64,000 nucleotides of DNA from Flectonema sp. DT1601 (Eukaryota; Euglenozoa; Diplonemea; Diplonemida; Diplonemidae), in NCBI GenBank assembly GCA_964019425.1, contig OZ025799.1, forward strand, positions 124,001 to 188,000, given 5' to 3'. The translations under genes and the position numbers were made by a program. Each line of letters opens with the position of its first letter. Within the stretch, counting starts at the first letter, position 1. This document shows, piece after piece, positions 3,336 through 50,829 of the stretch. The notes under the pieces were generated by a model. That model was not told the DNA's origin, did not search any database, and worked only from the letters and a program-made list of their open reading frames with translations.

Positions 3336-3352
3336 CTGTGTAAGGAATAAAA
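3336..3352 (-). promoter_or_regulatory. 3' splice acceptor-like site upstream of Sec24
   Basis: Minus strand reads TTTTATTCCTTACACAG. The AG is followed by a 34-nt leader and then the Sec24 ATG. Interpreted as a trans-splice acceptor; an acceptor of a 5'-UTR cis intron is the alternative. Confidence 0.45.
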
Positions 3353-4307
3353 TAGTTAGTATTTTTTTACCATTAGCTAACAATAGCGGCAGTTATCACA
3401 AAATAAATAAATAAAATCAAATCAAATCAATAAATAGAAAGGACAAATAAAATAATGGTTTACCTTTCAGGGATAAATTAAAAGACTTTTTTTCGCATCG
3501 ACATAGTTATTATTTTACTACTTAACATGGAATTAATTACTTTGGCTCAAACCAGCGCCTACTAGGCAAATAAGACAAAAAAAAAAGAATAATACTCGTT
3601 ACGTACTCCACTTAAATGAACCTGTCCAAAGGAGGCCCGCCAGTTTTTTTTTTTTTTTTTTTTCTCCTTAAAAAATTATTTTAAATCTATTTTATGCTTT
3701 TCCTCTCAATAAAAATTATGCTCATTTTTTTTTTCAATCAGTATAAGCAAACGTTTGGAAAGGGGACACCCTTTTTTTTTTAATTTTTTTGTTTTGCAAT
3801 AAGTAACTTAGAAAACGGTTTTCAGGCTGAACAGAGCTCTCCGCTGATTCCATGAACAACACTGGCGGAGGGAAATGAGGTCAGACAGATTAATAGGGGA
3901 AGAGAGCATCTTAATTGTGATTAATACAAAAAACTAGATAAATTGTTATATGCAGCAATAAACACAACAAGAAAAAACAAATAAATTTCCGTGATTTGCA
4001 AAAAAGTGGGAAGGGAGAAGAAAAAATGAACTTTTTTTTTTTTTTTTTTAAAGAAGAGAGGAGAGAATATTAAAAAAGGGTTAAATATGTAATTTTTCAG
4101 CTTTGCAATCTATTTTATTAAATCATTGCGACAACTTCATTTTTTCAGAGTAGTTGCTGCTACAATACTAAAGAACCTTTAACCAAAAGATGATTTTAAA
4201 AAAAAAAAAAAAATTAGAGACCCACAACGGTGAGCCCGACGACCAAAAAAGATACATGAACAAGCATGCGTGTAATAGTAATAATAATAATAAATAACTC
4301 AAAGGTT
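3353..4307. other. AT-rich intergenic spacer
   Basis: Homopolymer T and A runs (for example 3643-3663, 4029-4049 and 4198-4213) and no credible coding frame. It holds the 3' flank of the ankyrin gene and the upstream region of Sec24. No RNA gene recognised. Confidence 0.7.
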
Positions 4308-7300
4308 TTAGATTGGTGATTGCGGCAAAGGAGGAACAGCGCATTCAAAGTGCATAGTGGGCTGTAGTCTCTGAATGACAGAGCGATCAAAAGCAGTTAT
4401 AATGCAAGCTGACTGATCAACAATATGATGATATGGTAGCTTCCCTGACAAGTCAGAAATATCAGATTTAGCTCCAGCTTCCAGGAGATGATTAGCGAGA
4501 ATCCAGAATGATGAACGAGCTGCTAAATGAAGAGCAGTCATACCTGACTGGTCTTGTGAATCCACGACACCTGACCCTCCTCTGATATCAACCAAAAGAT
4601 TAATAACATCTCTCATCTCTGGATTGTTATAAGAAGAAACACTTGCTGCAAAGTGTAGAGGAGTATTACCACCAGCTGCTTGTAGTGTTAGTGAAGCCCC
4701 ACGTTGTATCAACGCAGAGATAACTCTTTTCCTTCCTGATCTCGCAGCAGCATGCAACGGCGAAACACCATCTCCATTTTGAAGCGCCAATATGGAAGGA
4801 TCTTTCATCAGTCTGTTCACAAGTTCTAACCACTCATCAGTTTCACATTCCTGTAACACAGCATAGTGTAATGCACATTGGTGTCTATTGTCGAGGTGCT
4901 TAGGATCCGCACCAGCATCGAGCAGTATATTGGCCATCTCAATCTTATTCGGTTCCATCGCATAATGAAGCGGTGATGTCATTAATGGAAGTCCCTGCAC
5001 TGCTTCAGGGATTACGAGTCTTTTGTAGAGATCCAAACGTGTTATGAATTCCGGCTGTTATTTGTAATTATAAATATAAAAATACTACACTACTTTATGT
5101 AAAACACAGGTGACAAGAGGTAAACATACCGCAGTAGCGTACATCACTGGCGTTGCTCCGCTGCTGTTACGAATAGCTGGGTTCGCACCCGAATCGAGTA
5201 GCATGTCGATGAATCTTGATTTGGTTTGAATAGCAGCGAAGAGAGGTGTGCTGCCTTCTTTATTAGGTTCGTTGATTGTCGTTGCATCAATTAACTCTTC
5301 AAGTACTCGAGCAGCGTTTGGGTGGTCTTCAAACTTTGGAACAGTTAATGCTGCATGTAGAGGAGTGTATCCAAGTGAGTCTTTAATTGTCTTATCTGCT
5401 CCAAGAGAAAGGAGTAGACTGGCTCGTCCCTTTTTATTCTCTCTTAAAGAACTATGTAATATAGTCATACCACGATGTTCACCAGCATCTGGGATTGTGT
5501 TGAGTGTTGTTGGTGTAGCAAGTTGTGAAGTTAATAAGTTGACGTCTTCGAATGGAATCTCAAGTTCCTGGTGTGGTATTATCGTTGATCTTTTCATTGC
5601 AGCAAATAAAAGAGACAAAGCTGAGGAACCATGTGAGCTCATTATGTTGGGATCGGCACCACTTTCAAGCAACTCTTTCGCCATTAACAAGTGTAGATTC
5701 TTACAACTTCTCATCAGTGGTGTCATTCCATCATTACCAACATCATTAAGGGAAGTCTTTGATAAAAATAATTTCCTCACCGACTGTACTAACTCGTCCT
5801 TTTGCTTAAACTTGTCATTCTTTGCAACTGCTTCAACTAAATCTGGAGTAATAGGTTTAGAACGATAGTGTAGTAGTAATTGTAATAACTTTACTCTGCC
5901 TGTTTCAATAGCGTGAAGAAGTTCTCCGTTATCATCACCGAGTTCAGCTCCCAGTGAGTTTGCATTTTTGAAATTTGATTCGGTGGTATCGACTTCCTCA
6001 AGTAGCATTTTATGTTCCTTGTATCGGGGTAACCAGTATCCATATTCTAGACGAATCCAATTCGGTTCAACTGTTCGTGCGGAGAGGATTTCACCCCTCA
6101 ATGGACCTGCCATCTTTGTCTCAATTGCTGAGTAGTCTTGTTTTGTTCTCAATGCTATTCCCTTTTCTGGAAGCACTCGGAATTGTCTCCTCTGAACAGG
6201 TGGTGTCACTGGATGAGATACTTGTGTTGGTGGAGGATTTAATAGTTGAGGTTGGGAATAATGTTGTGGAACATTTCTTAAATTAGAAGAACTATTTTGT
6301 GGAGTAACAGACATTTCTGACAAAGCTAAAACACATTCTTCTTCATTAGCTAGACCGTATTGTTTTACAACGTCATCAACTATTGCAGCGTCCAGTGTAC
6401 CAAACATCTCTCTCAGTGATCCCAATGAGCTTTCTCTTGTTAGTTCTGACTGTGGAGGAGATATCTTTGTCTTTGTTGTGGTTGCAGCTGCTTGTTGTGG
6501 TACCTGAAGTGGGTTTTCCTCAACAGTTTCATTCTGTTCCTGAGTAGTTAAGATATCAATGGATTGTTCTACAGATCCTCCCGTTAGCTCCCAAACTGTT
6601 CGGATGGCTTCTTCACCAAATCCCATTCCTGTTTTTATTTTATTTTTTTGTTTTCCAACTTTTTTCATGTCGCTTACATCTTTTATAAATTACACACCGA
6701 GAAGCATCGCCATGCCATCGTCCATCGGCTTCGTAGTCTCTTCTATTTTAATTCCAGTGTTTGCGGTGTATTTTCCCTTCTCTTCATCAATTTCGTACCA
6801 AGTTTCGATTGAAAGCGGATTTCGTGATTCATTTTTTGTACTAATTGCGTATGGTGATGAGGAAGTACCAGCATTTTGGTCAATAAATCCCCACTTTGAA
6901 CCATCAGAAAACAGTTTAATTTTAGAGTCAACTCTGCTGTATAATATCTGACCAGTTGGGGAATTATTTCTAATAGAATAAATACCATCAAGATCGTGTA
7001 CTGATCCAGACACTGACAGAGCTTGCGGTGATATGGTGGTGTCAATATTCGTATGAGATGAAGGGTTCGACTCTGGGAGAGAAAGGGCTGGTGCTGTTTT
7101 TACCTTTTCAGTCAATTCGTTGATTGTATTTTCTGCTTCACGCATTCTCCACTCTTCAGCTAGAATTTCTTGTGCTGACCACTCACTTTGAATACCACCT
7201 GAGTCACTACCTACTCCAGCTACTAACTGATCCCTTCGTTGTTTTGCAGAAGCACATTGCTGCTTCGCTGCTACCAGTTTCTCACTATCAAAATTGATAG

Positions 7301-8162
7301 TTGCTGTTGCTGGTGACTCACAGACATCATCACCAGGTAGTGTTGGTGCTGCGTGTATATTTGATCTCAGTTTCTTCTCCCAGTTCTGAAGCATCACACG
7401 AACATTCTCATCCATCCCTGCGGCTTCATCACTAAACATATATTGTAAAGTATTCCTAGCAGCTGACGATGGCATATTAGAAATATAATTATAACCATCT
7501 GGTGCGATTACTTCTTCCATTGGGTCAGTTGGAATTGGTTGTGTTAATGGAACAACTTTAGGAACCAGGTGCATCTTTCGATAATGTTTTTTAACGAATT
7601 CAATAGTATCACATCGATCTCTTGAAGTTCCAGAACTCGATTGCTTGCAACTGTTGTATAGTTCAGTTGCAATGTCGTTGAGAGAATTCGATTGAGAAGG
7701 AGACTGCCCATGTGATGGGACTCCAGTTGACAGAACCGACTTGAGCGATGCCACAGCTGCTGCGCTATCAGTGTGCGTTCGTAAAACATCAAAAAGGTCG
7801 CTAAAGGGAGAATTTGGTGGAGGCACCGTTTGCTGCTGCTGAACTTGCTTTTGCTCACTATGCGCGTTTGAGGACTGCGGAGAACTGCTGAGTGGAATAG
7901 GCGATGAGCTATTACTTACGCTTTCACCAGCTGTCATGGCAGCAATTTCTCCGAGTTGCATGACGCGAGGAGCTTCTTTCTTTTCTTTCGGAGGGTCCAG
8001 TGGTGGTAATCCGTGTTCGCTCCACGTCCCTGCCAGCAGATCTTTAAAATCGTCATCTGAAGACCCTCCAAGTGGTTTCTTTTTTGCCATCGAATCAACG
8101 CGGACAGCTTGCTCTTGAAACCCTCCCATCATTGCTGCTAACATGTCATCCTCACGAGGCAT
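4308..8162 (-). CDS. UBA/CUE and ankyrin-repeat protein, three exons
   Basis: Gene model: exons 8162-6698, 6628-5130 and 5054-4308, introns of 69 nt (phase 1) and 75 nt (phase 0), 1236 residues. The first intron hides a stop, so exons 1 and 2 look like two genes; joining them in frame produces LLGMGFGEEA, the canonical start of a UBA domain (about 487-520). Before it are a Ser/Gln-rich disordered region and, at about 385-480, a small GIYSI...W...W module resembling the NG-Y/W repeats of many protist proteins. A CUE-like helix set follows (SLREMF..., about 557-598), then ankyrin repeats from about 720 to the end (TPLMRSC, TPLHAAL, SPLHAAA, TPLHFAA, TALHLAA). UBA and CUE domains bind ubiquitin, so a ubiquitin adaptor or ligase scaffold is plausible, but no catalytic domain is seen. 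The internal ATG at 6668 has no acceptor-like tract upstream, unlike real gene starts here. Confidence 0.82.
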
Positions 8163-8175
8163 GTTTAGGTATCGT

Positions 8176-8190
8176 CTGATTGAAAGGATT
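8176..8190 (-). promoter_or_regulatory. 3' splice acceptor-like site upstream of the UBA/ankyrin gene
   Basis: Minus strand AATCCTTTCAATCAG, leaving a 13-nt leader before the ATG at 8162. Confidence 0.45.
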
Positions 8191-12344: not shown

Positions 12345-12376
<32 letters not shown>

Positions 12377-15927: not shown

Positions 15928-15947
15928 TTTCTTATTTAACTTTTGTT

Positions 15948-15960
15948 CTGAAAAGAAATT
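15948..15960 (-). promoter_or_regulatory. 3' splice acceptor-like site upstream of the PqiA-like gene
   Basis: Minus strand AATTTCTTTTCAG with a 20-nt leader to the ATG at 15927; one of the strongest pyrimidine tracts in the set. Confidence 0.5.
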
Positions 15961-16960: not shown

Positions 16961-16973
16961 CTTTATTTGAAAT

Positions 16974-16990
16974 CTAAAAAAATGAATAAA
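16974..16990 (-). promoter_or_regulatory. 3' splice acceptor-like site upstream of the 128-residue gene
   Basis: Minus strand TTTATTCATTTTTTTAG, 13-nt leader. One of two TAG-ending acceptors in the window. Confidence 0.45.
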
Positions 16991-17514: not shown

Positions 17515-18668
17515 CTATCGTCGTCGTCTTCGGCCAACTACTTTTTTTTCAACAATCGGAATTATAGGATCGTTTGTACTTTGTGCATATCGTAACTCTC
17601 TCCATTTCGCAGCGATATCTGCCATGGTAATTAAATTGACCTCATGGTTAGTTGCTTCTGGGTTTTCACGGATGGCGATAACCTTATGATCGTGGAAAAC
17701 TTCTTTCACGTAATAAGCGTAGTCGTTTGGCCTCTAATTTTTATTAATTATTTAGCTTGCTAACAATGCATAAACGATATTTTACAAAAGGGAAAAAAAT
17801 AGCATACCATTTTTACTGAATTCTTATATATATCACGCCTCACACGATTTTCAATTGCAATTTTATTGTACGCATCCTTTTCCTCGGAAGGCATGTGCTG
17901 TGGGTTTTTTCCCTTTTTTTTTTCTTTTTTTTTTAAATCCCGGAAACAAAACATATGTTAGTATAGAGCTATTTTACTTTTCTTCTGTCAGCTGGATTCT
18001 TCTCGTGTATAAGAACACTATCAAGCTATCTAGACACACTACACCACACAATTTCTTTCCAAGAAAAACTTTCTTCTAATAGAAGTAACGAACATACCGA
18101 CCACTCAAAATCACCGAAAGTTGCAACATCCTTGCTAAGTTGATTAGATCTGAATAATTGATAACCATTGCAAAGTCCAAAGGTGCGTATTGTCGATTGT
18201 AATCCTGCATTACGAGTCGACCTCTTGAGAGCTTGTTGTCCCTCACGACGAGCATCAAGAAATTTTAATTTTTCTCTACGAAATCTAGCTAATGTTGATT
18301 GTTTTACATTGGTTTTGTTCTTCGTTTCTGAGAAAAATTTGGTAACAGCTTCAATACTGTCAAGTCCTTTTGTTGGAGGCTCTTCATAAACTCTAAATGC
18401 AAAGTCGTTGCAGTTTTCAGGCGGGGGCGGTACATATTTACCAACTTGGGTAAATATTCGACCGCGTTCAATTTGTTTTAAAGTCTTTTCAATATGTGCT
18501 AATTGCCGTACATCGTGTCGACGAATTCGTTCCTTTCTATTTTTTTTTAATTATTTATTAACAGCATTAATATCAAACAAAGGTTCGATTAAGAAAAAAA
18601 GAATAGAGAAAAAGTTAAACATACTTACTAGCCCATCTAGTCTGCCTAAATAATTGCTTGAGAATCAT
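17515..18668 (-). CDS. HMG-box-like protein, probably mitochondrial; four exons
   Basis: Gene model: exons 18668-18625, 18536-18098, 17897-17808 and 17733-17515, with introns of 88, 200 and 74 nt (phases 2, 0, 0), 263 residues. All borders are GT-AG and the frame is kept throughout. The 44-nt first exon encodes MILKQLFRQTRWAS, a basic amphipathic start typical of a mitochondrial presequence. The C-terminal half shows two segments resembling HMG boxes: GYQLFRSNQL...SEEKDAYNKIAIENR (spanning the exon 2/3 junction) and RPNDYAYYVKEV...MADIAAKWREL. The protein ends in a run of five Arg. A TFAM-like mitochondrial DNA-binding protein fits, but a mitoribosomal protein cannot be excluded. The first exon and promoter region are included in the adjacent tandem duplication. 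Confidence 0.7.
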
Positions 18669-18687
18669 TTTTAATGATGTACAGGGT

Positions 18688-18706
18688 CTGAGATAACACA
18701 AAAAAA
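18688..18706 (-). promoter_or_regulatory. 3' splice acceptor-like site upstream of the HMG-box-like gene
   Basis: Minus strand TTTTTTTGTGTTATCTCAG, 19-nt leader to the ATG at 18668. Confidence 0.5.
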
Positions 18707-20359: not shown

Positions 20360-23300
20360 CTACGTTTCGTAATCAGGCTCACAGTGTTTAGTTTCGTTGT
20401 TTTCCGCAATTGAAATCACTGCTTCTTTGGTAACCGCGACGTAGATTTTCCCAACAATATAAATAACACCCATAGTGACCAATCCAACAATCAGAACAAT
20501 CTGAACATCATTCGAGTCATTTGGGAATAGGCGTTTAATATTTTCAACTCCGCTCGCCATTTGAGCGATAGCAATTATCACAACTGAAATACCAAACAGA
20601 ACGTGTCCCCATCCCCAGTACTTTCTGTATTGAGATTCCCTGCCTGGCCTGACAAGACCACTCAGTACTTGAATCCACCCAATTACTAATAAAGTAATTC
20701 CAAGTTCTCTATGTCCATAGTCCACTCTGTTATTAAAGTCTGACAAGGCAAAAGAAGCGAAAACAGTAGTAAAACACATCGCCATAACCATCATGAACAT
20801 GTGGATTAATACCGGTATTGGATACCCAAACACTTCTCTCTTACACACCAAAGCCCCAAGAACCTTAATAATAACTGACAAAGGAACCCAGTATGCCCAA
20901 ACCGCCACCATAATTCTACCGTGAGTGTGAGCATCGATAAAGCCATCGTTAACGACAACAACTTGTGGGATGTCAGTAACAACAACAACAACAGCAGCAC
21001 TTCCTTCAACGTATCCAATAACTGCATTGTTTGACAAGACATTCTTTAAAGAACTATCGATAGCTTCTTTTGTGATGCTTCCATTTTCATTATTAATTAT
21101 AATCAAAATCACTTTCCAATTTCCTCTCACCAGTGTAGTAACAGATCTTTGAGTAACAGCAGTGCCATCACATTTCAAACAATTTCTTCCCTGACACAAC
21201 ATATCGCAACGAGCATTTCCACCTAATGATGAAGAAGCGGCAGCTACCAACGTGTCTATCTGAGTTACCAGATCACTCAACTCTGCTACAACTTCAAAAT
21301 TAATGCTGTTTTCAGCAGGACGCGTAACTTTAGGCTCAGGTGGTGGCGTAACTACAGGCTCAGTTGGTGGTGAAACTTCCGGCTCAGTTGGAGGTGAAAC
21401 CACAGGCTCAGTTGGAGGTGAAACTACCGGCTCAGTTGGAGGTGAAACCACAGGCTCAGTTGGAGGTGAAACTACAGGCTCAGTTGGTGGTGAAACTACA
21501 GGCTCAGTTGGAGGTGAAACCACAGGCTCAGTTGGCGGTGACACTACAGGCTCAGTTGGTGGTGAAACCACAGGCTCAGTCGGAGGTGAAACCACAGGCT
21601 CAGTTGGAGGTGAAACTTCCGGCTCAGTTGGAGGTGAAACTACCGGCTCAGTTGGAGGTGAAACCACAGGCTCAGTTGGAGGTGAAACTACAGGCTCAGT
21701 TGGTGGTGAAACTACAGGCTCAGTTGGAGGTGAAACCACAGGCTCAGTTGGCGGTGACACTACAGGCTCAGTTGGTGGTGAAACCACAGGCTCAGTCGGA
21801 GGTGAAACCACAGGCTCAGTTGGAGGTGACACTACAGGCTCAGTTGGAGGTGAAACTACCGGCTCAGTTGGAGGTGAAACCACAGGCTCAGTTGGAGGTG
21901 AAACTTCCGGCTCAGTTGGAGGTGAAACTACCGGCTCAGTTGGAGGTGAAACCACAGGCTCAGTTGGAGGTGAAACCACAGGCTCAGTTGGAGGTGAAAC
22001 TACAGGCTCAGTTGGTGGTGAAACTACAGGCTCAGTTGGAGGTGAAACCACAGGCTCAGTTGGCGGTGACACTACAGGCTCAGTTGGTGGTGAAACCACA
22101 GGCTCAGTCGGAGGTGAAACCACAGGCTCAGTTGGAGGTGACACTACAGGCTCAGTTGGAGGTGAAACTACAGGCTCAGTTGGTGGTGAAACCACAGGCT
22201 CAGTTGGCGGTGACACTACAGGCTCAGTTGGTGGTGAAACCACAGGCTCAGTTGGAGGTGAAACTTCCGGCTCAGTTGGAGGTGAAACTACCGGCTCAGT
22301 TGGAGGTGAAACCACAGGCTCAGTTGGAGGTGAAACTACAGGCTCAGTTGGAGGTGAAACTACAGGCTCAGTTGGAGGTGAAACCACAGGCTCAGTTGGC
22401 GGTGACACTACAGGCTCAGTTGGTGGTGAAACCACAGGCTCAGTTGGAGGTGACACTACAGGCTCAGTTGGAGGTGAAACTACAGGCTCAGTTGGTGGTG
22501 AAACCACAGGCTCAGTTGGCGGTGACACTACAGGCTCAGTTGGTGGTGAAACCACAGGCTCAGTTGGAGGTGAAACTTCCGGCTCAGTTGGAGGTGAAAC
22601 TACCGGCTCAGTTGGAGGTGAAACCACAGGCTCAGTTGGAGGTGAAACTACAGGCTCAGTTGGAGGTGAAACTACAGGCTCAGTTGGAGGTGAAACCACA
22701 GGCTCAGTTGGCGGTGACACTACAGGCTCAGTTGGTGGTGAAACCACAGGCTCAGTCGGAGGTGAAACCACAGGCTCAGTTGGAGGTGAAACTTCCGGCT
22801 CAGTTGGAGGTGAAACTACCGGCTCAGTTGGAGGTGAAACCACAGGCTCAGTTGGAGGTGAAACTACAGGCTCAGTTGGAGGTGAAACTACCGGCTCAGT
22901 TGGTGGTGAAACCACAGGCTCAGTTGGCGGTGACACTACAGGCTCAGTTGGTGGTGAAACCACAGGCTCAGTTGGCGGTGACACTACAGGCTCAGTTGGA
23001 GGTGAAACCACAGGCTCAGTTGGAGGTGAAACTACAGGCTCAGTTGGTGGTGAAACTACAGGCTCAGTTGGAGGTGAAACCACAGGCTCAGTTGGCGGTG
23101 ACACTACAGGTTCAGTTGGTGGTGAAACCACAGGCTCAGTCGGAGGTGAAACCACAGGCTCAGTTGGAGGTGACACTACAGGCTCAGTTGGAGGTGAAAC
23201 TACAGGCTCAGTTGGTGGTGAAACCACAGGCTCAGTTGGCGGTGACACTACAGGCTCAGTTGGTGGTGAAACCACAGGCTCAGTTGGCGGTGACACTACA

Positions 23301-26300
23301 GGCTCAGTTGGTGGTGAAACCACAGGCTCAGTTGGCGGTGACACTACAGGCTCAGTTGGAGGTGAAACTACAGGCTCAGTTGGCGGTGACACTACAGGCT
23401 CAGTTGGAGGTGAAACCACAGGCTCAGTAGGAGGTGAAACTACCGGCTCAGTTGGAGGTGAAACTACAGGCTCAGTCGGAGGTGAAACCACAGGCTCAGT
23501 CGGAGGTGAAACTACCGGCTCAGTTGGAGGTGAAACTACCGGCTCAGTCGGAGGTGAAACCACAGGCTCAGTTGGAGGTGAAACTACCGGCTCAGTCGGA
23601 GGTGAAACTACCGGCTCAGTTGGTGGTGAAACTACAGGCTCAGTTGGAGGTGAAACTACCGGCTCAGTTGGAGGTGAAACTACCGGCTCAGTTGGTGGTG
23701 AAACTACAGGCTCAGTTGGAGGTGAAACCACAGGCTCCGTTGGAGGTGAAACTACAGGCTCCGTTGGAGGTGAAACCACAGGCTCAGTTGGAGGTGAAAC
23801 CACAGGCTCCGTTGGAGGTGAAACTACAGGCTCCGTTGGAGGTGAAACTACAGGCTCAGTCGGAGGTGAAACTACAGGCTCAGTCGGAGGTGAAACTACA
23901 GGCTCCGTTGGAGGTGAAACTACAGGCTCCGTTGGAGGTGAAACTACAGGCTCAGTCGGAGGTGAAACTACAGGCTCAGTCGGAGGTGAAACTACCGGCT
24001 CAGTTGGTGGTGAAACTACAGGCTCAGTTGGAGGTGAAACCACAGGCTCCGTTGGAGGTGAAACTACAGGCTCAGTCGGAGGTGAAACTACAGGCTCAGT
24101 CGGAGGTGAAACCACAGGCTCCGTTGGAGGTGAAACTACAGGCTCCATTGGAGGTGAAACTACAGGCTCCGTTGGAGGTGAAACTACAGGCTCCGTTGGA
24201 GGTGAAACTACAGGCTCAGTTGGCGGTGAAACTACAGGCTCCGTTGGAGGTGAAACTACAGGCTCCATTGGAGGTGAAACTACAGGCTCCGTTGGAGGTG
24301 AAACTACAGGCTCCGTTGGAGGTGAAACTACAGGCTCCGTTGGAGGTGAAACTACAGGCTCAGTCGGAGGTGAAACTACAGGCTCAGTCGGAGGTGAAAC
24401 TACCGGCTCAGTTGGAGGTGAAACCACAGGCTCAGTTGGAGGTGAAACCACAGGCTCAGTTGGAGGTGAAACCACAGGCTCCGTTGGAGGTGAAACTACA
24501 GGCTCCATTGGAGGTGAAACTACAGGCTCCGTTGGAGGTGAAACTACAGGCTCAGTCGGAGGTGAAACTACAGGCTCCGTTGGAGGTGAAACCACAGGCT
24601 CCGTTGGAGGTGAAACTACAGGCTCCATAGGAGGTGAAACTACAGGCTCAGTTGGTGGCAGAACTTGAGGAGGTTCCCTGAAATTCACGATCACACTTCC
24701 TGCCGTAGTATGCTTGCTAACAGGAAATTCCATTTCAGATGAATGGAAAGCAAAGTTCACAGGTGTGGCAGCTATAAGAAACGCTGTGTGGACGTTGAAT
24801 CTCAGAATGCGCATATCGTTTACGATCTCCGTAGACGGACTCTGAATGGTAGAAGTAGTAAACGACTGCCTCGAAATAATTCCACCTGCTGTCCTTTCAT
24901 GGAACGTGTAGATGTTCGCATCAGTGGCACTGGTCGTAGCGACACCAAGTGCTGGGACCATGGACCCCGGAATTTCGGGAAACGACACCGAAAACCATCC
25001 GTTGACAGATGTCGTCGTAGCAGCAACACCTGCTCTCTGGAGATGAAAAGGTAATCCCTGAATTACTTCTACTTGATCCCAGTGGAGGGTTACATCTGGC
25101 GATAAAGCTGACATGCAGTCGTAAGTTGTGCTTTCTGTCTTGAACAGAGTTGAAGCCGTGCAAGTTGGAACAAGGGCTGGTTCTGTAACTACAACACGAG
25201 GTTCCACGAAATAAACAGCCACGCTTCCTACCGAAGTATGCTTGCTAACAGGAAATTCCATTTCAGATGAATGGAAAGCGAAGTTCACTGCAGTGGCAGA
25301 ATACATAAAATCCGAGTTGATGCGGAATCTCAGAAAACGCATCCCGTTCGCAATCTCCGTCGTTGGGTTGTGAAACAACCGAGACGATACCGAAGTGATT
25401 CCAGCTGCTGTCCTTTCACTAAACGAGAAGATGCCCGTTGTAGTGGCACCGGTTGTAGCGACACCAATTGCTGGGAACATGGAACCCAAATTTCTAGGAA
25501 ATGATATTGAAAACCATCCGGTGACCGATGTAGTCGTAGCCACAAATTGCGCTTGGCCAAATATTTCACGAATCCAGTGGATGGTTACTTCCGACGACAA
25601 ATCCATCATGCAGTCGTAAGAGATTCCCGCTTCAACTAAAGTTGAAGGTGTGCAAGTTGTGTCGCGGGTTGGCAGTTGAACAAGAGGCTCAGTTGGTGGC
25701 GAAACCACAGGCTCAGTTGGCGGTGAAACCACAGGCTCCGTTGGAGGTGAAACTACAGGCTCCGTTGGCGGTGAAACTACAGGCTCAGTTGGTGGCAGAA
25801 CTTGAAGAGGTTCCCTGAAATTCACGATCACACTTCCTGCCGTAGTATGCTTGCTAACAGGAAATTCCATTTCAGATGAATGGAAAGCAAAGTTCACAGG
25901 TGTGGCAGCTATAAGAAACGCTGTGTGGACGTTGAATCTCAGAATGCGCATATCGTTTACGATCTCCGTAGACGGACTCTGAATGGTAGAAGTAGAAAAC
26001 GACTGCCTCGAAATAATTCCACCTGCTGTCCTTTCATGGAACGTGTAGATGTTCGCATCAGTGGCACTGGTCGTAGCGACACCAAGTGCTGGGACCATGG
26101 ACCCCGGAATTTCGGGAAACGACACCGAAAACCATCCGTTGACATATGTCGTCGTAGCAGCAACACCTGCTCTCTGGAGATGAAAAGGTAATCCCTGAAT
26201 TACTTCTACTTGATCCCAGTGGAGGGTTACATCTGGCGATAAAGCTGACATGCAGTCGTAAGTTGTGCTTTCTGTCTTGAACAGAGTTGAAGCCGTGCAA

Positions 26301-29300: not shown

Positions 29301-30211
29301 CTCAGAATGCGCATATCGTTTACGATCTCCGTAGACGGACTCTGAATGGTAGAAGTAGTAAATGACTGCCTCGAAATAATTCCACCTGCTGTCCTTTCAT
29401 GGAACGCGTAGATGCTCGCATCAGTGGCACTGGTCGTAGCGACACCAAGTGCTGGGACCATGGACCCCGGAATTTCGGGAAACGACACCGAAAACCATCC
29501 GTTGACAGATGTCGTCGTAGCAGCAACACCTGCTCTCTGGAGATGAAAAGGTAATCCCTGAATTACTTCTACTTGATCCCAGTGGAGGGTTACATCTGGC
29601 GATAAAGCTGACATGCAATCGTAAGTTGTGCTTTCTGTCTTGAACAGAGTTGAAGCCGTGCAAGTTGGAACAAGGGCTGGTTCTGTAACTACAACACGAG
29701 GTTCCACGAAAGAAACAGCCACGCTTCCTACCGAAGTATGCTTGCTAACAGGAAATTCCATTTCAGATGAATGGAAAGCGAAGTTCACTGCAGTGGCAGA
29801 ATACATAAAATCCGAGTTGATGCGGAATCTCAGAAAACGCATCCCGTTCGCAATCTCCGTCGTTGGGTTGTGAAACAACCGAGACGATACCGAAGTGATT
29901 CCAGCTGCTGTCCTTTCACTAAACGAGAAGATGCCCGTTGTAGTGGCACCGGTTGTAGCGACACCAATTGCTGGGAACATGGAACCCAAATTTCTAGGAA
30001 ATGATATTGAAAACCATCCGGTGACCGATGTAGTCGTAGCCACAAATTGCGCTTGGCCAAATATTTCACGAATCCAGTGGATGGTTACTTCCGACGACAA
30101 ATCCATCATGCAGTCGTAAGGGATTCCCTCTTCAACTAAAGTTGAAGGTGTGCATTGTGAACTAACAACACCCAATAAAGGAAGCAACATAAAGAGACTG
30201 AGTAATCTCAT
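20360..30211 (-). CDS. Giant DOMON-cytochrome b561 protein with ten DOMON domains
   Basis: Uninterrupted 3283-codon frame. Signal peptide MRLLSLFMLLPLLGVVSS, then five pairs of DOMON domains (types A and B alternating, residues about 19-1845), a proline-rich stalk of about 138 PPTEPVVS repeats (about 1850-2953), a juxtamembrane segment with four Cys (CDMLC...CLKC), and a five-helix cytochrome b561 domain (about 3090-3250). The b561 part keeps four His in successive helices (HGRIMVAVW, LIHMFMM, GHRELGI, GWGHVLFG). In each DOMON a Met in GSMFPA or GSMVPA and a His in VSKHT match the heme-ligand positions known in cellobiose dehydrogenase. Known DOMON-b561 proteins move electrons across membranes (ferric or ascorbate-linked reduction), which is the likely role here, with the array outside the membrane. 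Family members usually carry one or two DOMONs, so ten plus a 1100-residue stalk is exceptional. Confidence 0.9.
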   Translation of the reverse strand: MRLLSLFMLLPLLGVVSSQCTPSTLVEEGIPYDCMMDLSSEVTIHWIREIFGQAQFVATTTSVTGWFSISFPRNLGSMFPAIGVATTGATTTGIFSFSERTAAGITSVSSRLFHNPTTEIANGMRFLRFRINSDFMYSATAVNFAFHSSEMEFPVSKHTSVGSVAVSFVEPRVVVTEPALVPTCTASTLFKTESTTYDCMSALSPDVTLHWDQVEVIQGLPFHLQRAGVAATTTSVNGWFSVSFPEIPGSMVPALGVATTSATDASIYAFHERTAGGIISRQSFTTSTIQSPSTEIVNDMRILRFNVHTAFLIAATPVNFAFHSSEMEFPVSKHTTAGSVIVNFREPPQVLPPTEPVVSPPTEPVVSPPTEPVVSPPTEPVVSPPTEPLVQLPTRDTTCTPSTLVEAGISYDCMMDLSSEVTIHWIREIFGQAQFVATTTSVTGWFSISFPRNLGSMFPAIGVATTGATTTGIFSFSERTAAGITSVSSRLFHNPTTEIANGMRFLRFRINSDFMYSATAVNFAFHSSEMEFPVSKHTSVGSVAVSFVEPRVVVTEPALVPTCTASTLFKTESTTYDCMSALSPDVTLHWDQVEVIQGLPFHLQRAGVAATTTSVNGWFSVSFPEIPGSMVPALGVATTSATDANIYTFHERTAGGIISRQSFTTSTIQSPSTEIVNDMRILRFNVHTAFLIAATPVNFAFHSSEMEFPVSKHTTAGSVIVNFREPPQVLPPTEPVVSPPTEPVVSPPTEPVVSPPTEPLVQLPTRGTTCTPSTLVEAGISYDCMMDLSSEVTIHWIREIFGQAQFVATTTSVTGWFSISFPRNLGSMFPAIGVATTGATTTGIFSFSERTAAGITSVSSRLFHNPTTEIANGMRFLRFRINSDFMYSATAVNFAFHSSEMEFPVSKHTSVGSVAVSFVEPRVVVTEPALVPTCTASTLFKTESTTYDCMSALSPDVTLHWDQVEVIQGLPFHLQRAGVAATTTSVNGWFSVSFPEIPGSMVPALGVATTSATDANIYTFHERTAGGIISRQSFTTSTIQSPSTEIVNDMRILRFNVHTAFLIAATPVNFAFHSSEMEFPVSKHTTAGSVIVNFREPPQVLPPTEPVVSPPTEPVVSPPTEPVVSPPTEPLVQLPTRGTTCTPSTLVEAGISYDCMMDLSSEVTIHWIREIFGQAQFVATTTSVTGWFSISFPRNLGSMFPAIGVATTGATTTGIFSFSERTAAGITSVSSRLFHNPTTEIANGMRFLRFRINSDFMYSATAVNFAFHSSKMGFPVSKHTSVGSVAVYFVEPRVVVTEPALVPTCTASTLFKTESTTYDCMSALSPDVTLHWDQVEVIQGLPFHLQRAGVAATTTYVNGWFSVSFPEIPGSMVPALGVATTSATDANIYTFHERTAGGIISRQSFSTSTIQSPSTEIVNDMRILRFNVHTAFLIAATPVNFAFHSSEMEFPVSKHTTAGSVIVNFREPLQVLPPTEPVVSPPTEPVVSPPTEPVVSPPTEPVVSPPTEPLVQLPTRDTTCTPSTLVEAGISYDCMMDLSSEVTIHWIREIFGQAQFVATTTSVTGWFSISFPRNLGSMFPAIGVATTGATTTGIFSFSERTAAGITSVSSRLFHNPTTEIANGMRFLRFRINSDFMYSATAVNFAFHSSEMEFPVSKHTSVGSVAVYFVEPRVVVTEPALVPTCTASTLFKTESTTYDCMSALSPDVTLHWDQVEVIQGLPFHLQRAGVAATTTSVNGWFSVSFPEIPGSMVPALGVATTSATDANIYTFHERTAGGIISRQSFTTSTIQSPSTEIVNDMRILRFNVHTAFLIAATPVNFAFHSSEMEFPVSKHTTAGSVIVNFREPPQVLPPTEPVVSPPMEPVVSPPTEPVVSPPTEPVVSPPTEPVVSPPTEPVVSPPMEPVVSPPTEPVVSPPTEPVVSPPTEPVVSPPTEPVVSPPTEPVVSPPTEPVVSPPTEPVVSPPTEPVVSPPTEPVVSPPMEPVVSPPTEPVVSPPTEPVVSPPTEPVVSPPTEPVVSPPMEPVVSPPTEPVVSPPTEPVVSPPTEPVVSPPTEPVVSPPTEPVVSPPTEPVVSPPTEPVVSPPTEPVVSPPTEPVVSPPTEPVVSPPTEPVVSPPTEPVVSPPTEPVVSPPTEPVVSPPTEPVVSPPTEPVVSPPTEPVVSPPTEPVVSPPTEPVVSPPTEPVVSPPTEPVVSPPTEPVVSPPTEPVVSPPTEPVVSPPTEPVVSPPTEPVVSPPTEPVVSPPTEPVVSPPTEPVVSPPTEPVVSPPTEPVVSPPTEPVVSPPTEPVVSPPTEPVVSPPTEPVVSPPTEPVVSPPTEPVVSPPTEPVVSPPTEPVVSPPTEPVVSPPTEPVVSPPTEPVVSPPTEPVVSPPTEPVVSPPTEPVVSPPTEPVVSPPTEPVVSPPTEPVVSPPTEPVVSPPTEPVVSPPTEPVVSPPTEPVVSPPTEPVVSPPTEPVVSPPTEPVVSPPTEPEVSPPTEPVVSPPTEPVVSPPTEPVVSPPTEPVVSPPTEPVVSPPTEPVVSPPTEPVVSPPTEPVVSPPTEPEVSPPTEPVVSPPTEPVVSPPTEPVVSPPTEPVVSPPTEPVVSPPTEPVVSPPTEPVVSPPTEPVVSPPTEPVVSPPTEPVVSPPTEPVVSPPTEPVVSPPTEPEVSPPTEPVVSPPTEPVVSPPTEPVVSPPTEPVVSPPTEPVVSPPTEPVVSPPTEPVVSPPTEPVVSPPTEPVVSPPTEPVVSPPTEPVVSPPTEPVVSPPTEPVVSPPTEPVVSPPTEPEVSPPTEPVVSPPTEPVVSPPTEPVVSPPTEPVVSPPTEPVVSPPTEPVVSPPTEPVVSPPTEPVVSPPTEPVVSPPTEPVVSPPTEPVVSPPTEPEVSPPTEPVVSPPTEPVVSPPTEPVVSPPTEPVVSPPTEPVVSPPTEPVVSPPTEPVVSPPTEPVVSPPTEPVVSPPTEPEVSPPTEPVVTPPPEPKVTRPAENSINFEVVAELSDLVTQIDTLVAAASSSLGGNARCDMLCQGRNCLKCDGTAVTQRSVTTLVRGNWKVILIIINNENGSITKEAIDSSLKNVLSNNAVIGYVEGSAAVVVVVTDIPQVVVVNDGFIDAHTHGRIMVAVWAYWVPLSVIIKVLGALVCKREVFGYPIPVLIHMFMMVMAMCFTTVFASFALSDFNNRVDYGHRELGITLLVIGWIQVLSGLVRPGRESQYRKYWGWGHVLFGISVVIIAIAQMASGVENIKRLFPNDSNDVQIVLIVGLVTMGVIYIVGKIYVAVTKEAVISIAENNETKHCEPDYET
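21353..24660 (-). repeat. 24-bp coding minisatellite, about 138 copies of PPTEPVVS
   Basis: In-register 24-nt units with only point variants; most change the third codon position, and a few give PPMEPVVS or PPTEPEVS. The unit has no stop in several frames, so long plus-strand frames (GETTGSVG repeats, 1121 codons) arise as by-products. Variant units recur at exact multiples of 24: the CTTCC variant is spaced 240, 288, 360, 312 and 216 nt, indicating block duplications. Confidence 0.95.
24664..30160 (-). repeat. Tandem array of five DOMON-pair units (1113 or 1137 bp)
   Basis: A shared landmark (GGTTGGCAGTTGAAC) recurs every 1137, 1113, 1113 and about 1137 bp; the 24-bp difference equals one PPTEPVVS unit in the inter-pair linker. 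Units 2-5 are almost identical. The N-terminal pair carries the ASIYAFHE variant shared with gene B, while the other four pairs carry ANIYTFHE. Confidence 0.93.
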
Positions 30212-30224
30212 GGTTTATATTTAA

Positions 30225-30240
30225 CTGTTGAATAAATGAA
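30225..30240 (-). promoter_or_regulatory. 3' splice acceptor-like site upstream of DOMON-b561 gene A
   Basis: Minus strand TTCATTTATTCAACAG, 13-nt leader to the ATG at 30211. Identical in gene B. Confidence 0.45.
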
Positions 30241-32971: not shown

Positions 32972-35059
32972 CTACGTTTCGCAATCAGGCTCACAGTGTT
33001 TAGTTTCGTTGTTTTCCGCAATTGAATTCACTGCTTTTTTGGTAACCGCGACGTAGGTTTTCCCAACAATATAAATAACACCCATAGTGACCAATCCAAC
33101 AATCAGAACAATCTGAACATCATTCGAGTCATTTGGGAATAGGCGTTTAATATTTTCAACTCCGCTCGCCATTTGAGCGATAGCAATTATCACAACTGAA
33201 ATACCAAACAGAACGTGTCCCCATCCCCAGTACTTTCTGTATTGAGATTCCCCGCCTGGCCTGACAAGACCACTCAGTACTTGAATCCACCCAATTACTA
33301 ATAAAGTAATTCCAAGTTCTTTATGTCCATAGTCCACTCTGTTATTAAAGTCTGACAAGGCAAAAGAAGCGAAAACAGTAGTAAAACACATCGCCATAAC
33401 CATCATGAACATGTGGATTAATACCGGTATTGGATACCCAAACACTTCTCTCTTACACACCAAAGCCCCAAGAACCTTAATAATAACTGACAAAGGAACC
33501 CAGTATGCCCAAACCGCCACCATAATGCTACCGTGAGTGTGAGCATCGATAAAGCCATCGTTAACGACAACAACTTGTGGGACGTCAGTAACAACAACAA
33601 CAACAGCAGCACTTCCTTCAACGTATCCAATAACTGCATTGTTTGACAAGACATTCTTTAAAGAACTATCGATAGCTTCTTTTGTGATGCTACCATTTTC
33701 ATTATTAATTATAATCAAAATCACTTTCCAATTTCCTCTCACCAGAGTAGTAACAGATCTTTGAGTAACAGCAGTGCCATCACATTTCAAACAATTACTT
33801 CCCTGACACAACATATCGCAACGAGCATTTCCACCTAATGATGAAGAAGCGGCAGCTACCAACGTTTCTATCTGAGTTACCAGATCACTCAACTCAGCTA
33901 CAACTTCAAAATTAATGCTGTTTTCAGCAGGACGCGTAACTTCAGGCTCAGGTGGTGGCGTAACTACAGGCTCAGTTGGCGGCGAAACTACAGGCTCAGT
34001 TGGTGGCAGAACTTGAGGTGGTTCCCTGAAATTCACGATCACACTTCCTGCCGTAGTATGCTTGCTAACAGGAAATTCCATTTCAGATGAATGGAAAGCA
34101 AAGTTCACAGGTGCGGCAGCTATAAGAAACGCTGTGTGGACGTAGAATCTCAGAATGCGCATATCGTTTACGATCTCCGTAGACGGACTCTGAATGGTAG
34201 AAGGAGTAAATGACTGCCTCGAAATAATTCCACCTGCTGTCCTTTCATGGAACGCGTAGATGCTCGCATCAGTGGCACTGGTCGTAGCGACACCAAGTGC
34301 TGGGACCATGGACCCCGGAATTTCGGGAAACGACACCGAAAACCATCCGTTAACAGATGTCGTCGTAGCAGCAACACCTGCTCTCTGGAGATGAAAAGGT
34401 AATCCCTGAATTACTTCTACTTGATCCCAGTGGAGGGTTACATCTGGCGATAAAGCTGACATGCAGTCGTAAGTTGTGCTTTCTGTCTTGAACAGAGTTG
34501 AAGCCGTGCAAGTTGGAACAAGGGCTGGTTCTGTAACTACAACACGAGGTTCCACGAAAGAAACAGCCACGCTTCCTACCGAAGTATGCTTGCTAACAGG
34601 AAATTCCATTTCAGATGAATGGAAAGCGAAGTTCACTGCAGTGGCAGAATACATAAAATCCGAGTTGATGCGGAATCTCAGAAAACGCATCCCGTTCGCA
34701 ATCTCCGTCGTTGGGTTGTGAAACAACCGAGACGATACCGAAGTGATTCCAGCTGCTGTCCTTTCACTAAACGAGAAGATGCCCGTTGTAGTGGCACCGG
34801 TTGTAGCGACACCAATTGCTGGGAACATGGAACCCAAATTTCTAGGAAATGATATTGAAAACCATCCGGTGACCGATGTAGTCGTAGCCACAAATTGCGC
34901 TTGGCCAAATATTTCACGAATCCAGTGGATGGTTACTTCCGACGACAAATTCATCATGCAGTCGTAAGGGATTCCCGCTTCAACTAAAGTTGAAGGTGTG
35001 CATTGTGAACTAACAACACCCAATAAAGGAAGCAACATAAAGAGACTGAGTAATCTCAT
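32972..35059 (-). CDS. DOMON-cytochrome b561 protein, compact paralogue B
   Basis: 695-codon frame, tandem paralogue of the giant gene to its left. It has the same signal peptide, one A-B DOMON pair (about residues 19-360), only about two PPTEPVV units, the same Cys-containing juxtamembrane segment and the same b561 domain with four helix His (HGSIMVAVW, LIHMFMM, GHKELGI, GWGHVLFG). The C-terminus differs slightly from A (KTYVAVTKKAVNS and CET against KIYVAVTKEAVIS and YET). It shows the likely ancestral size of the protein. Predicted role is transmembrane electron transfer with two extracellular heme b domains. The 5' region, including the acceptor and 13-nt leader, is the same as in A, so both copies are probably expressed in the same way. 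Confidence 0.92.
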   Translation of the reverse strand: MRLLSLFMLLPLLGVVSSQCTPSTLVEAGIPYDCMMNLSSEVTIHWIREIFGQAQFVATTTSVTGWFSISFPRNLGSMFPAIGVATTGATTTGIFSFSERTAAGITSVSSRLFHNPTTEIANGMRFLRFRINSDFMYSATAVNFAFHSSEMEFPVSKHTSVGSVAVSFVEPRVVVTEPALVPTCTASTLFKTESTTYDCMSALSPDVTLHWDQVEVIQGLPFHLQRAGVAATTTSVNGWFSVSFPEIPGSMVPALGVATTSATDASIYAFHERTAGGIISRQSFTPSTIQSPSTEIVNDMRILRFYVHTAFLIAAAPVNFAFHSSEMEFPVSKHTTAGSVIVNFREPPQVLPPTEPVVSPPTEPVVTPPPEPEVTRPAENSINFEVVAELSDLVTQIETLVAAASSSLGGNARCDMLCQGSNCLKCDGTAVTQRSVTTLVRGNWKVILIIINNENGSITKEAIDSSLKNVLSNNAVIGYVEGSAAVVVVVTDVPQVVVVNDGFIDAHTHGSIMVAVWAYWVPLSVIIKVLGALVCKREVFGYPIPVLIHMFMMVMAMCFTTVFASFALSDFNNRVDYGHKELGITLLVIGWIQVLSGLVRPGGESQYRKYWGWGHVLFGISVVIIAIAQMASGVENIKRLFPNDSNDVQIVLIVGLVTMGVIYIVGKTYVAVTKKAVNSIAENNETKHCEPDCET

Positions 35060-35072
35060 GGTTTATATTTAA

Positions 35073-35088
35073 CTGTTGAATAAATGAA
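35073..35088 (-). promoter_or_regulatory. 3' splice acceptor-like site upstream of DOMON-b561 gene B
   Basis: Same tract and spacing as for gene A (13-nt leader). Confidence 0.45.
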
Positions 35089-38308: not shown

Positions 38309-38315
38309 TACTCTA

Positions 38316-38330
38316 CTGAGGGGTAATAAA
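38316..38330 (-). promoter_or_regulatory. 3' splice acceptor-like site upstream of the IQ/ankyrin gene
   Basis: Minus strand TTTATTACCCCTCAG, 7-nt leader; it decides the start at 38308 over the upstream TTG. Confidence 0.5.
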
Positions 38331-39378: not shown

Positions 39379-39393
39379 AGCGGTAGTTACTTC

Positions 39394-39404
39394 CTGTTAA
39401 ACAA
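39394..39404 (-). promoter_or_regulatory. 3' splice acceptor-like site upstream of the GTPase gene
   Basis: Minus strand TTGTTTAACAG, 15-nt leader to the ATG at 39378. Confidence 0.4.
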
Positions 39405-39506: not shown

Positions 39507-39538
<32 letters not shown>

Positions 39539-44192: not shown

Positions 44193-44215
44193 TATGTATA
44201 ATAAAATGCCGCAAA

Positions 44216-44232
44216 CTGAAAAAAGAAATAAA
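44216..44232 (-). promoter_or_regulatory. 3' splice acceptor-like site upstream of the DMT transporter gene
   Basis: Minus strand TTTATTTCTTTTTTCAG, 23-nt leader. Textbook pyrimidine tract. Confidence 0.55.
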
Positions 44233-49697: not shown

Positions 49698-49701
49698 TCA
49701 C

Positions 49702-49716
49702 CTATTAGAGAGAGTT
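49702..49716 (-). promoter_or_regulatory. 3' splice acceptor-like site upstream of the receptor-like gene
   Basis: Minus strand AACTCTCTCTAATAG, only 4 nt (GTGA) before the ATG at 49697. Confidence 0.5.
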
Positions 49717-49928
49717 AAGTATAACAAAGTAAATACAACAATCGTATTTAACAAAAGTAACGTCTCCGTCTTTACCATTAACCTGTTGTTGTTGTTCTTG
49801 TTGTACGAAAGTGTTTATTAGAATTCAAACAACTAAATCAGTACAGAAAGCACGAGGATAGCAAAGGTGTAACTAAAGAGAAATATTCAACTGTTGCAAT
49901 AAAGAACAGGAAGATTGGAGTAGCCGGC

Positions 49929-50801
49929 TTAACGTGGTAATTCATACTCCTCATCACTGTCTTCATTATACGGAGCTGATATGGGAAGACACTGCGTCGG
50001 TCTCTCAATAGCGTGGTACATTACATCTGTGCGGAGAACATACTTCTTTAAGTCTTCTTTTGGACTGCCTTCAGTAGGGAGAAGAGGAAGTCCACAATGC
50101 CAGGCACTCTTTTCACCAGTGTGATGAAATATGAGAGCTGATCCAGCAACAGGTGTCACCTTATTGCTGACTTCTGAATACGGATCAGGAAAAAACGCCG
50201 TTTCACCCCCACCTCCTTCCGAAGAAGAAGTTAAATACACCAACACAGTTAACCACGAGATGAATTCGTAGTTTTTCACAGTAGTGTTGTCTCTGTGAAC
50301 AGGAAAGTATTGTCCTGCTCCAGAATACCTGTTTTGTTTATACATAACTCTGACGACCTGTTTATATTCTCTTTGGCGAGAGCCGCTGCTCACTCACGCC
50401 CGAATAAGAATAATACAATTGTTCTATATTATAATATACCTATAAAACCTGTACATATCATTTAGTCCCCAGTACTTCCAGTTTCCATAATGGTCAGCCT
50501 CAATTGTAGGAGGGCAGAATGGCTGTAGTACATCAGATAGACTTTTCTCTTGTTCTGGAGTTACCTTCGTAACGTGACGGTCATTCTTGCGGGTTCTCAT
50601 TTCTTGTTTGTCTAACTTTGCATTTTGGTAGGCTGGATGCGTGCTGTTGTCATATCCCCCGTCTTCTTCTTCTGACATTTTGATCAATTTCTTACATTCT
50701 TCTTCACTAAGGACATTTCTCACTAATACAGCTCCTCGAACGTTTTCAACTTCGGAAGCAGTCGGCTGCTTACAATCAGAAGATACGAGATAATCAGACA
50801 T
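49929..50801 (-). CDS. 2-oxoglutarate/Fe(II) oxygenase, prolyl 4-hydroxylase-like
   Basis: Gene model: exons 50801-50440 and 50328-49929, with a 111-nt intron (phase 2), 253 residues. Splicing restores MYRFYRYSGAGQYFPVHRD, a hallmark of the P4H family. Iron ligands are HRD (His and Asp) and the distal His of WHCG; the 2-oxoglutarate-binding basic residue is probably Arg of KYVLRTDV. These enzymes hydroxylate prolines using O2 and 2-oxoglutarate. The start is ambiguous: ATG at 50870 would add MFLFAVSQIAKG..., a hydrophobic leader, but acceptor-like CTCAG at 50813 and GCAG at 50855 fall between them, so I favour 50801. Whether it is cytosolic or ER-resident depends on that. The C-terminus is acidic (EDSDEEYELPR). 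Proline-rich linkers of the neighbouring surface proteins are possible but unproven substrates. Confidence 0.85.
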
Positions 50802-50812
50802 TTGAGAAAGAC

Positions 50813-50829
50813 CTGAGAATAACGAGATC
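50813..50829 (-). promoter_or_regulatory. 3' splice acceptor-like site upstream of the oxygenase gene
   Basis: Minus strand GATCTCGTTATTCTCAG, 11-nt leader to the ATG at 50801. A second candidate, TTTCTTTTTGCAG, ends at 50855. Confidence 0.45.

Follow-up and report, generated by a model that had tools for sequence, protein, structure and literature searches.

Probable spliced-leader addition at gene starts of a diplonemid gene array, with T-rich start acceptors and A-rich cis-intron acceptors

The window (the whole 64,000-nucleotide stretch analysed, from contig OZ025799.1) carries twelve genes with a visible start, all on the minus strand. At each of the twelve starts, all of which were read, a YAG lies directly before a short leader, and both the leader lengths (34, 13, 20, 13, 19, 13, 13, 7, 15, 23, 4 and 11 nt) and the division into ten CAG and two TAG sites are exactly those of the original prediction, which had taken these sites for acceptors of a trans-spliced leader. 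The predicted acceptors, together with four predicted cis introns, are as follows.

3302..3337, minus strand: trans-splice acceptor (AG at 3337-3336) and 34-nt leader of a putative Sec24-like gene (name from the original prediction), ATG 3301
8163..8177, minus strand: acceptor and 13-nt leader of a UBA/ankyrin gene (domain matches), ATG 8162
15928..15949, minus strand: acceptor and 20-nt leader of a 1123-aa ORF lacking a Pfam match, ATG 15927
16961..16975, minus strand: acceptor (TAG) and 13-nt leader, ATG 16960
18669..18689, minus strand: acceptor and 19-nt leader, ATG 18668
30212..30226, minus strand: acceptor and 13-nt leader of a 3283-aa repeat protein gene, ATG 30211
35060..35074, minus strand: acceptor and 13-nt leader of a paralogue of the 3283-aa repeat protein, ATG 35059; not independent of the preceding one
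38309..38317, minus strand: acceptor and 7-nt leader of an IQ/ankyrin gene, ATG 38308
39379..39395, minus strand: acceptor and 15-nt leader of a Ras-like/EF-hand gene, ATG 39378
44193..44217, minus strand: acceptor and 23-nt leader of an EamA/SLC35F5-like transporter gene, ATG 44192
49698..49703, minus strand: acceptor (TAG) and 4-nt leader, ATG 49697
50802..50814, minus strand: acceptor and 11-nt leader of a 2OG oxygenase gene, ATG 50801
5055..5129, minus strand: predicted cis intron of 75 nt with a GTATG donor, in the ankyrin gene
6629..6697, minus strand: predicted cis intron of 69 nt with an A-rich acceptor, containing ATG 6668; a UBA match just below the Pfam cut-off runs across the junction
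17734..17807, minus strand: predicted cis intron of 74 nt with a GTATG donor and an A-rich acceptor
18537..18624, minus strand: predicted cis intron of 88 nt with a GTATG donor and an A-rich acceptor

A pyrimidine-rich tract and acceptor AG close before open reading frames are the arrangement associated with trans-splicing in Euglenozoa. The strength of the tract is uneven, with a pyrimidine fraction of 0.60-0.85 over 20 nt, and further AGs occur inside five of the twelve leaders, the Sec24-like leader holding three. Since the DNA upstream of the paralogous starts 30211 and 35059 is near-identical, there are eleven independent cases. The internal ATG at 6668, put forward originally as a negative control, lacks a start-type tract for the simple reason that it lies inside the predicted cis intron 6697-6629, which has an A-rich acceptor of its own. 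An Rfam scan of the window returned no match, no tRNAs were found in it, and a piece of the oxygenase matched none of the PDB sequences.

The genes form a one-way array, 80 of the 81 selected long ORFs across 264 kb lying on one strand, and the start signal recurs in the flanking DNA. An acceptor score was trained on eleven starts, one paralogue being dropped, and applied to the adjoining 200 kb; all twelve starts were scored once, and the comparisons of composition and with shuffles used eleven. Scores above 3 were reached by 43% of 58 flank first ATGs. The share was 2% among 621 internal in-frame ATGs (Mann-Whitney p 1e-19), 4% among 2935 antisense ATGs in the adjoining 200 kb, and 7% among 1708 sense ATGs that lie beyond long ORFs in the 264 kb. 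The mean of the training starts (4.18) exceeded that of all 300 shuffled sets (maximum 1.74, shuffles lacking an AG being counted as -99). Three of the eleven training starts themselves score below 3, and more than half of the 58 flank first ATGs stay under the threshold. The nearest YAG alone separates flank starts from internal ATGs moderately (AUC 0.68), and more A than T precedes it in 16 of 55 flank first ATGs, the other three being dropped for lying below coordinate 65200 or having no YAG within 60 nt. Some of the flank first ATGs probably belong to internal exons or are wrongly called starts, and this may explain part of the failures.

Cis introns are also predicted in this DNA, and their acceptors are of a different composition. 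Candidate introns were predicted by a home-made Viterbi model and filtered by donor, acceptor composition playing no part in the prediction; 138 were predicted, gene mergers included, 39 were kept (40-130 nt, donor filter), and restriction to GTATG donors with copies of the same 12-nt junction collapsed left 24. The tract before their acceptors averages 0.59 A and 0.21 T, with A exceeding T in 21 of 24, as against 0.24 A and 0.56 T at the starts, where A exceeds T in none of eleven; composition separates the two sets with an AUC of 0.97 (p 1e-5, 11 vs 24). GTATG-like donors, CAG ends and an unusual A-rich tract before the cis 3' splice site are likewise described for D. japonicum in the available part of Thakur et al. 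(2025, PMC12621601). That account, as far as its available text goes, treats cis introns without a contrast to trans acceptors, which are T-rich here. The pairing of T-rich trans with A-rich cis acceptors is possibly new for these signals. A search for the U2AF large-subunit family gave 62 weak matches, all of which fell short of the cut-off.

An ab initio procedure could itself have produced this difference by its choice of introns. The 24 introns compared come from a home-made prediction, and a simpler scan found 30 sense and 22 antisense donors, so that scan alone fails to separate real introns and reliance was placed on junctions spanned by protein domains and on a retrocopy. In the 15-nt tracts of the four Pfam-spanned introns the counts of A and T are 13/2 (UBA), 10/4 (FAD_binding_6), 11/2 (Kelch) and 11/2 (EF-hand), the last three matches being above the Pfam cut-off and the UBA match across 6697-6629 below it; a kinase intron proven by its absence from a retrocopy gives 9/1. 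The predicted intron 50448-50350, left out of the supported set for its unusual donor though it is domain-spanning, shows no more than a mild excess of A (6 A, 4 T). With acceptor composition unused in the prediction, all five supported introns A-rich and the published D. japonicum tracts (PMC12621601, available text) of the same kind, an artefact of picking is an unlikely account of the split.

The repeated leader RNA gene that was expected is present in the genome, where SL RNA genes and 5S rRNA share tandem units; the contig of the window itself bears one such array. The SL exon is 39 nt long and is followed by a GT donor. Its core has 825 genome matches with up to 3 mismatches, relics included, against 2 for a reversed control. 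The tandem units are mostly 610 or 623 bp, with some longer steps in the C20 array. In L005, which holds three of the C16 array's SL copies, 5S rRNA (98.7 bits) was the only match at the gathering threshold, no U2 snRNA being found there. The fold of the candidate SL RNA beats 200 of 200 shuffles (z -4.15).

The closest protein relatives are diplonemid: in one search the best named match is from D. papillatum (51%), and in another a EukProt protein matches at 98%, then one with the prefix Sspe at 82% and D. papillatum at 80%. The EukProt prefixes Sspe, Hpha and Rhum we take to stand for Sulcionema, Hemistasia and Rhynchopus, and the SL is, we assume, identical to that of D. papillatum. Of Euglenozoa and dinozoans, the two groups originally named for trans-splicing at such sites, the first is the one that applies; a dinoflagellate origin was rejected, a 22-nt DinoSL pattern having no match in the genome with up to 3 mismatches. 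According to the available text of Valach et al. (2023, PMC10161547), D. papillatum shares the 39-nt SL exon, the tandem arrangement of SL and 5S rRNA genes, the one-way gene clusters and the GT-AG cis introns. The same text gives that species U2 snRNA in the unit as well (5S alone was seen here, in L005 from C16, the one array locus scanned), 110 SL copies in place of the 825 core matches counted here with relics, and a genome of about 280 Mb as against 89.5 Mb.

Exact SL cores are followed by something other than GT at 94 sites (reversed controls, 0), and 41 of these were read: all 13 of one list, with the first 20 of another and 8 more there whose next base is C or A, leaving out 53. In 34 of the 41 at least 38 contiguous nt of SL exon abut the junction, the SL there extending to within one nucleotide of its own 5' end. 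The downstream sequences fall into 19 families; at the sites other than L039, L066 and L078 they consist of a leader, frequently with an open frame, in place of the SL intron. A single shared 5' sequence at such AGs had been predicted, and it is found here, attached to the differing leaders of retroposed cDNAs of genes other than the window's twelve. In L057, L058 and L061 leaders are nested: an older SL contains an AG, and another SL is attached immediately behind it. One of the relics is a kinase retrocopy, identical to its parent over the 329 nt compared apart from a 72-nt cis intron, which the copy lacks. Exactly at the copy's SL junction the parent has ...ttttttatcaaattccag, a T-rich CAG acceptor, the parent reading ...gatcaagttttttatcaaattccag and the copy ...ctttattg before the shared CCCCTCC. 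An SL exon is thus fused to an intronless host-gene copy elsewhere in the genome, for one host gene and one intron compared; no poly(A) tail was seen in the copy before a tandem repeat begins. This is the one host-gene parent/copy pair shown; for the other four relics whose relatives were searched (L059, L066, L071 and L078), these are multi-copy families without a single host parent. Pfam gave no family for the long frames of L037, L044 and L045 or the start of L059, so that copy number and the sharing of families are the grounds for taking them as putative mobile elements.

It is very improbable that these dispersed copies are decayed SL RNA genes, uninformative on splicing, rather than mRNAs copied back. 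An 11-nt string that precedes SL genes does stand before L039 and L066, and its last 10 nt before L078, but it is unseen at the other 38 sites read (seven with just 10-11 nt upstream). The near-complete SL and the leader in place of an SL intron also speak against decay, which would neither delete a host cis intron nor set the SL at the parent's AG. L039, L066 and L078 may have arisen by insertion into SL genes or by recombination with them. The kinetoplastid retrotransposons SLACS, CZAR and CRE reside in SL gene arrays and insert inside the SL exon. Putative mobile elements here may resemble them in lying within such arrays; L066, by contrast, follows a complete SL exon. Dinoflagellates offer a counterpart to the genomic SL-tagged retrogenes in their DinoSL relicts or recycled cDNAs (Slamovits and Keeling 2008, as given in the available text of PMC6050394), in which repeated rounds also leave older SLs downstream of newer ones (PMC6050394). 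Those relicts differ in SL and in lineage, the dinoflagellate pattern being absent here. The literature found on SL relicts, in part-text and with most subscription journals outside the search, concerns dinoflagellates and Perkinsus, with none for Euglenozoa.

That each start instead follows a short 5'-UTR cis intron, its 5' exon being encoded locally and the YAG serving as an ordinary cis 3' splice site, is scarcely credible: a standard cis acceptor is also a YAG with a pyrimidine tract and cis introns do occur in this genome, but the acceptors of cis introns in this DNA are A-rich and those of the starts T-rich, a poor fit for this rival, the start acceptor of the kinase parent took the SL, and SL genes and SL-tagged cDNAs are present.

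The reading as SL trans-splicing is therefore supported, from DNA alone, by the SL RNA genes and the SL-tagged retroposed cDNAs, and the window genes very probably receive one shared SL at their starts. Almost certainly, to judge by these signals, the locus is a one-way diplonemid gene array in which the SL from SL-5S units is spliced to T-rich YAGs before the ORFs and cis introns use A-rich acceptors. The array would be transcribed as a polycistron; at the T-rich YAG preceding an ORF the spliceosome would attach the SL exon, so that every mRNA begins with one common capped 5' end and a usually short leader, and it would remove cis introns at the distinct, A-rich type of acceptor. The composition of the tract may contribute to the separation of these two reactions.

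How species that splice both in cis and in trans prevent SL addition at their intron acceptors is, to our knowledge, an open question. Trans-splicing itself is not new, since it is established in diplonemids; in the available text of PMC10161547 it is already described, with the SL reported on essentially all mRNAs of D. papillatum (Valach et al. 2023). More tentatively, and with rather less than even confidence, there may be two opposite acceptor codes, T-rich for SL trans sites and A-rich for cis 3' sites, with the choice between cis and trans written in the acceptor, where different tract-binding factors would probably read it; SL-tagged retroposition would then be a genome-wide fossil record of both codes that needs no RNA. 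The split in acceptor signal matters in that trans and cis sites seem separable by sequence, and the SL-tagged retrocopies, some with nested leaders, offer a DNA-only record of mature mRNAs.

All 12 of the gene starts, which lie on the minus strand, are preceded by a pyrimidine-rich tract with CAG or TAG at its end, and the leader lengths and the division into 10 CAG and 2 TAG ends given in the original prediction were all recovered on re-reading. The starts at 30211 and 35059 belong to paralogues whose upstream DNA is almost alike, which leaves 11 independent cases. A simple acceptor score, trained on these 11, was then applied beyond the window to the following 200 kb of the contig. Of the 58 ATGs that come first in long ORFs there, 43% exceeded a score of 3, compared with 2% of 621 in-frame ATGs at internal positions (p 1e-19) and 4% of 2935 ATGs on the antisense strand; over the full 264 kb, the figure was 7% for 1708 sense ATGs located outside long ORFs. 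The mean score of the window starts, 4.18, is higher than that of every one of 300 shuffled sets (maximum 1.74). Three of the 11 window starts score below 3 and over half of the 58 flank starts fall below the threshold, part of these flank ORFs probably being internal exons or differently started. When the nearest YAG was used as the sole criterion, flank starts and internal ATGs were no more than moderately separated (AUC 0.68).

The main alternative to spliced leader (SL) trans-splicing, that short cis introns lie in the 5'-UTRs of these genes, was weighed against the composition of the 15 nt preceding the YAG. For the cis set, introns with a GTATG donor were taken from ab initio predictions made blind to acceptor composition and were collapsed to 24. 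Their acceptors are A-rich (A 0.59, T 0.21; more A than T in 21 of 24), whereas those of the 11 window starts are T-rich (A 0.24, T 0.56; more A than T in none of the 11), with an AUC of 0.97 (p 1e-5) between the two sets. Nearest-YAG sites of 55 flank starts also differ from the cis set (AUC 0.90; A exceeds T in 16 of 55). This split in composition is evidence against 5'-UTR cis introns. Among the predicted introns, the following have A-rich ends and a domain match running across the junction:

Predicted introns with domain matches across the junction (window coordinates, continued into the right flank where stated)
6697-6629, UBA, below Pfam's cut-off
188499-188434 (right flank), FAD_binding_6, above Pfam's cut-off
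238762-238702 (right flank), Kelch, above Pfam's cut-off
135847-135742 (right flank), EF-hand, above Pfam's cut-off

Another intron candidate with a domain across its junction, 50448-50350, shows only a mild excess of A and an unusual donor. The internal ATG at 6668, proposed earlier as a negative control, fits that role, as it falls within a predicted cis intron whose end is A-rich. For D. japonicum, such A-rich tracts before cis acceptors have been published (PMC12621601), and no statement on a difference between trans and cis acceptors was found in the available part of that source or among the papers listed for the diplonemid polypyrimidine tract.

In the ORF at 20360-30211 (3283 aa), a two-module unit occurs several times, together with a long SPPTEPVV minisatellite; its adjoining paralogue at 32972-35059 (695 aa) has one unit, and a C-terminus with a weak cytochrome b561 match just below Pfam's cut-off. 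From 56032 to 63546, and further to about 65037 in the right flank, there is a series of tandem ORFs of 174-190 aa, spaced mostly at 0.66-0.71 kb. Near-identical 120-nt GTATG introns are predicted between many of them, and the series is apparently a single gene in which an exon/intron unit has been duplicated.

The genome comprises 92 contigs totalling 89.5 Mb, and the window covers positions 124001-188000 of C20. Judged by its protein relationships, the source organism is a diplonemid: the best named relative of the EamA/SLC35F5-like window protein is from Diplonema papillatum (51%), and a kinase encoded elsewhere in the genome shares 98% identity, across its whole length, with a transcriptome protein in EukProt, 80% with a D. 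papillatum protein and 74-82% with further EukProt entries (Sulcionema, Hemistasia and Rhynchopus, as inferred from prefixes). A core of the kinetoplastid/diplonemid SL matched the genome at 330 + 495 places when up to three mismatches were allowed; its reversed control matched at 1 + 1. All but one of the matches listed belong to two tandem arrays, each close to a contig end: one on C16, stepping mostly by 623 bp, the other on C20, the window's own contig, stepping mostly by 610 bp with some steps of 1695 bp or longer among them. The C20 array, a putative SL-5S array, consists of two blocks in opposite directions:

SL core matches in the C20 array
G000:C20:1248666-1292013, plus strand, block 1
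G000:C20 from 1306067 to at least 1318607 among the matches listed, minus strand, block 2

At the start of the C16 array (L005) there are three 5S rRNA genes (Rfam, 98.7 bits), each followed by the 39-nt exon aaccaacgattctaaagctacagtttctgtactttattg and then gtacag, with a T run after about 70 nt. The fold of the candidate SL RNA is more stable than those of 200 of 200 shuffles (z -4.15). For D. papillatum, a 39-nt SL exon, a 75-nt SL intron and an SL copy number of 110 are reported, the units also holding 5S and U2 (PMC10161547). The 39-nt exon and the linkage to 5S are alike; no U2 was found by an Rfam scan of L005.

The exact SL core followed by something other than GT occurs at 81 + 13 = 94 dispersed sites, interpreted here as fossils of spliced mRNAs, and at none for the reversed patterns. 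In the 41 of these relics read in detail, at least 38 contiguous SL nucleotides directly precede the junction in 34, and the string preceding the SL genes was unseen in 38, the upstream stretches being short in the last eight. The sequences beyond the junction form 19 families by shared 12-mers and often begin with a short leader followed by an open reading frame from an ATG, although no such frame was seen within the piece examined in five members of one family and in L065. In 21 of the 41, SL sequence is intact for the 38 nt ahead of the junction and the 39th base differs from the A of the SL gene, perhaps marking the cap end or an untemplated base at integration.

One relic, L062 on C17, copies a protein kinase gene (Pkinase, Pfam) and bears the SL tag. 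Among the matches listed, the sole other locus, on C18, is 100% identical to it in two pieces. The parent reads gatcaagttttttatcaaattccag up to the junction and CCCCTCCCCC beyond it, while the copy reads tttctgtactttattg and then CCCCTCCCCC, placing the SL exactly at the parent's CAG, 33 nt upstream of the ATG. The parent's 72-nt intron (GTATTG...caaaactcacaaacag), whose acceptor is A-rich, is cleanly absent from the copy, with identity extending 99 nt upstream and 230 nt downstream of it. The pair is therefore a single genomic fossil that records trans-splicing at a T-rich acceptor together with cis-splicing at an A-rich one. An extra YAG (ctccacag) between the SL junction and the ATG was bypassed in the copy, and the copy's protein aligns without gaps to its EukProt transcriptome relative. 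In the stretch L070 (G000:C17:649571-651200) the retrocopy meets a GC-rich tandem repeat soon after the stop codon, and up to that repeat no poly(A) tail was seen.

Several relics display repeated rounds. In L057 and L058 an SL (35 and 26 nt intact, respectively) is joined right after an AG inside an older SL (ctacag, then tttctg), in L061 the newer SL is complete and follows an earlier AG of the older one, and L052 retains a short older piece that is absent from L050 and L056 of the same leader. These nested leaders are the product of repeated splicing and copying back, with AGs internal to the SL (aaag, ctacag) used as acceptors; nested SL relicts of a like kind are known from dinoflagellates (PMC6050394). 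At L066, L039 and L078, sequence follows a complete SL exon whose SL-gene upstream sequence is present. The L066 family is found on C33, C69, C22, C71, C68 and C63, with at least 28 full-query matches (self included) among 44, with 40 of 79 candidates having been scored, and is possibly a retroelement resident in SL genes at the exon/intron border.

The DNA contains SL genes, T-rich start acceptors, an SL at such an acceptor in one host gene and cis introns with A-rich ends. The acceptor observation is confirmed, and these features support SL trans-splicing at the 12 starts, a reading that is very probably right. The gene array, with 80 of 81 selected long ORFs sharing a strand over 264 kb, would be transcribed as a polycistron, the SL would be added to all 12 window mRNAs, and the T-rich and A-rich tracts may be recognised by different means. 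For the large subunit of U2AF, a family search of the genome gave 62 weak matches, all of them below the cut-off. Trans-splicing of an SL in diplonemids is already known; the split between acceptors and the SL-tagged retrocopies in a euglenozoan may be new.
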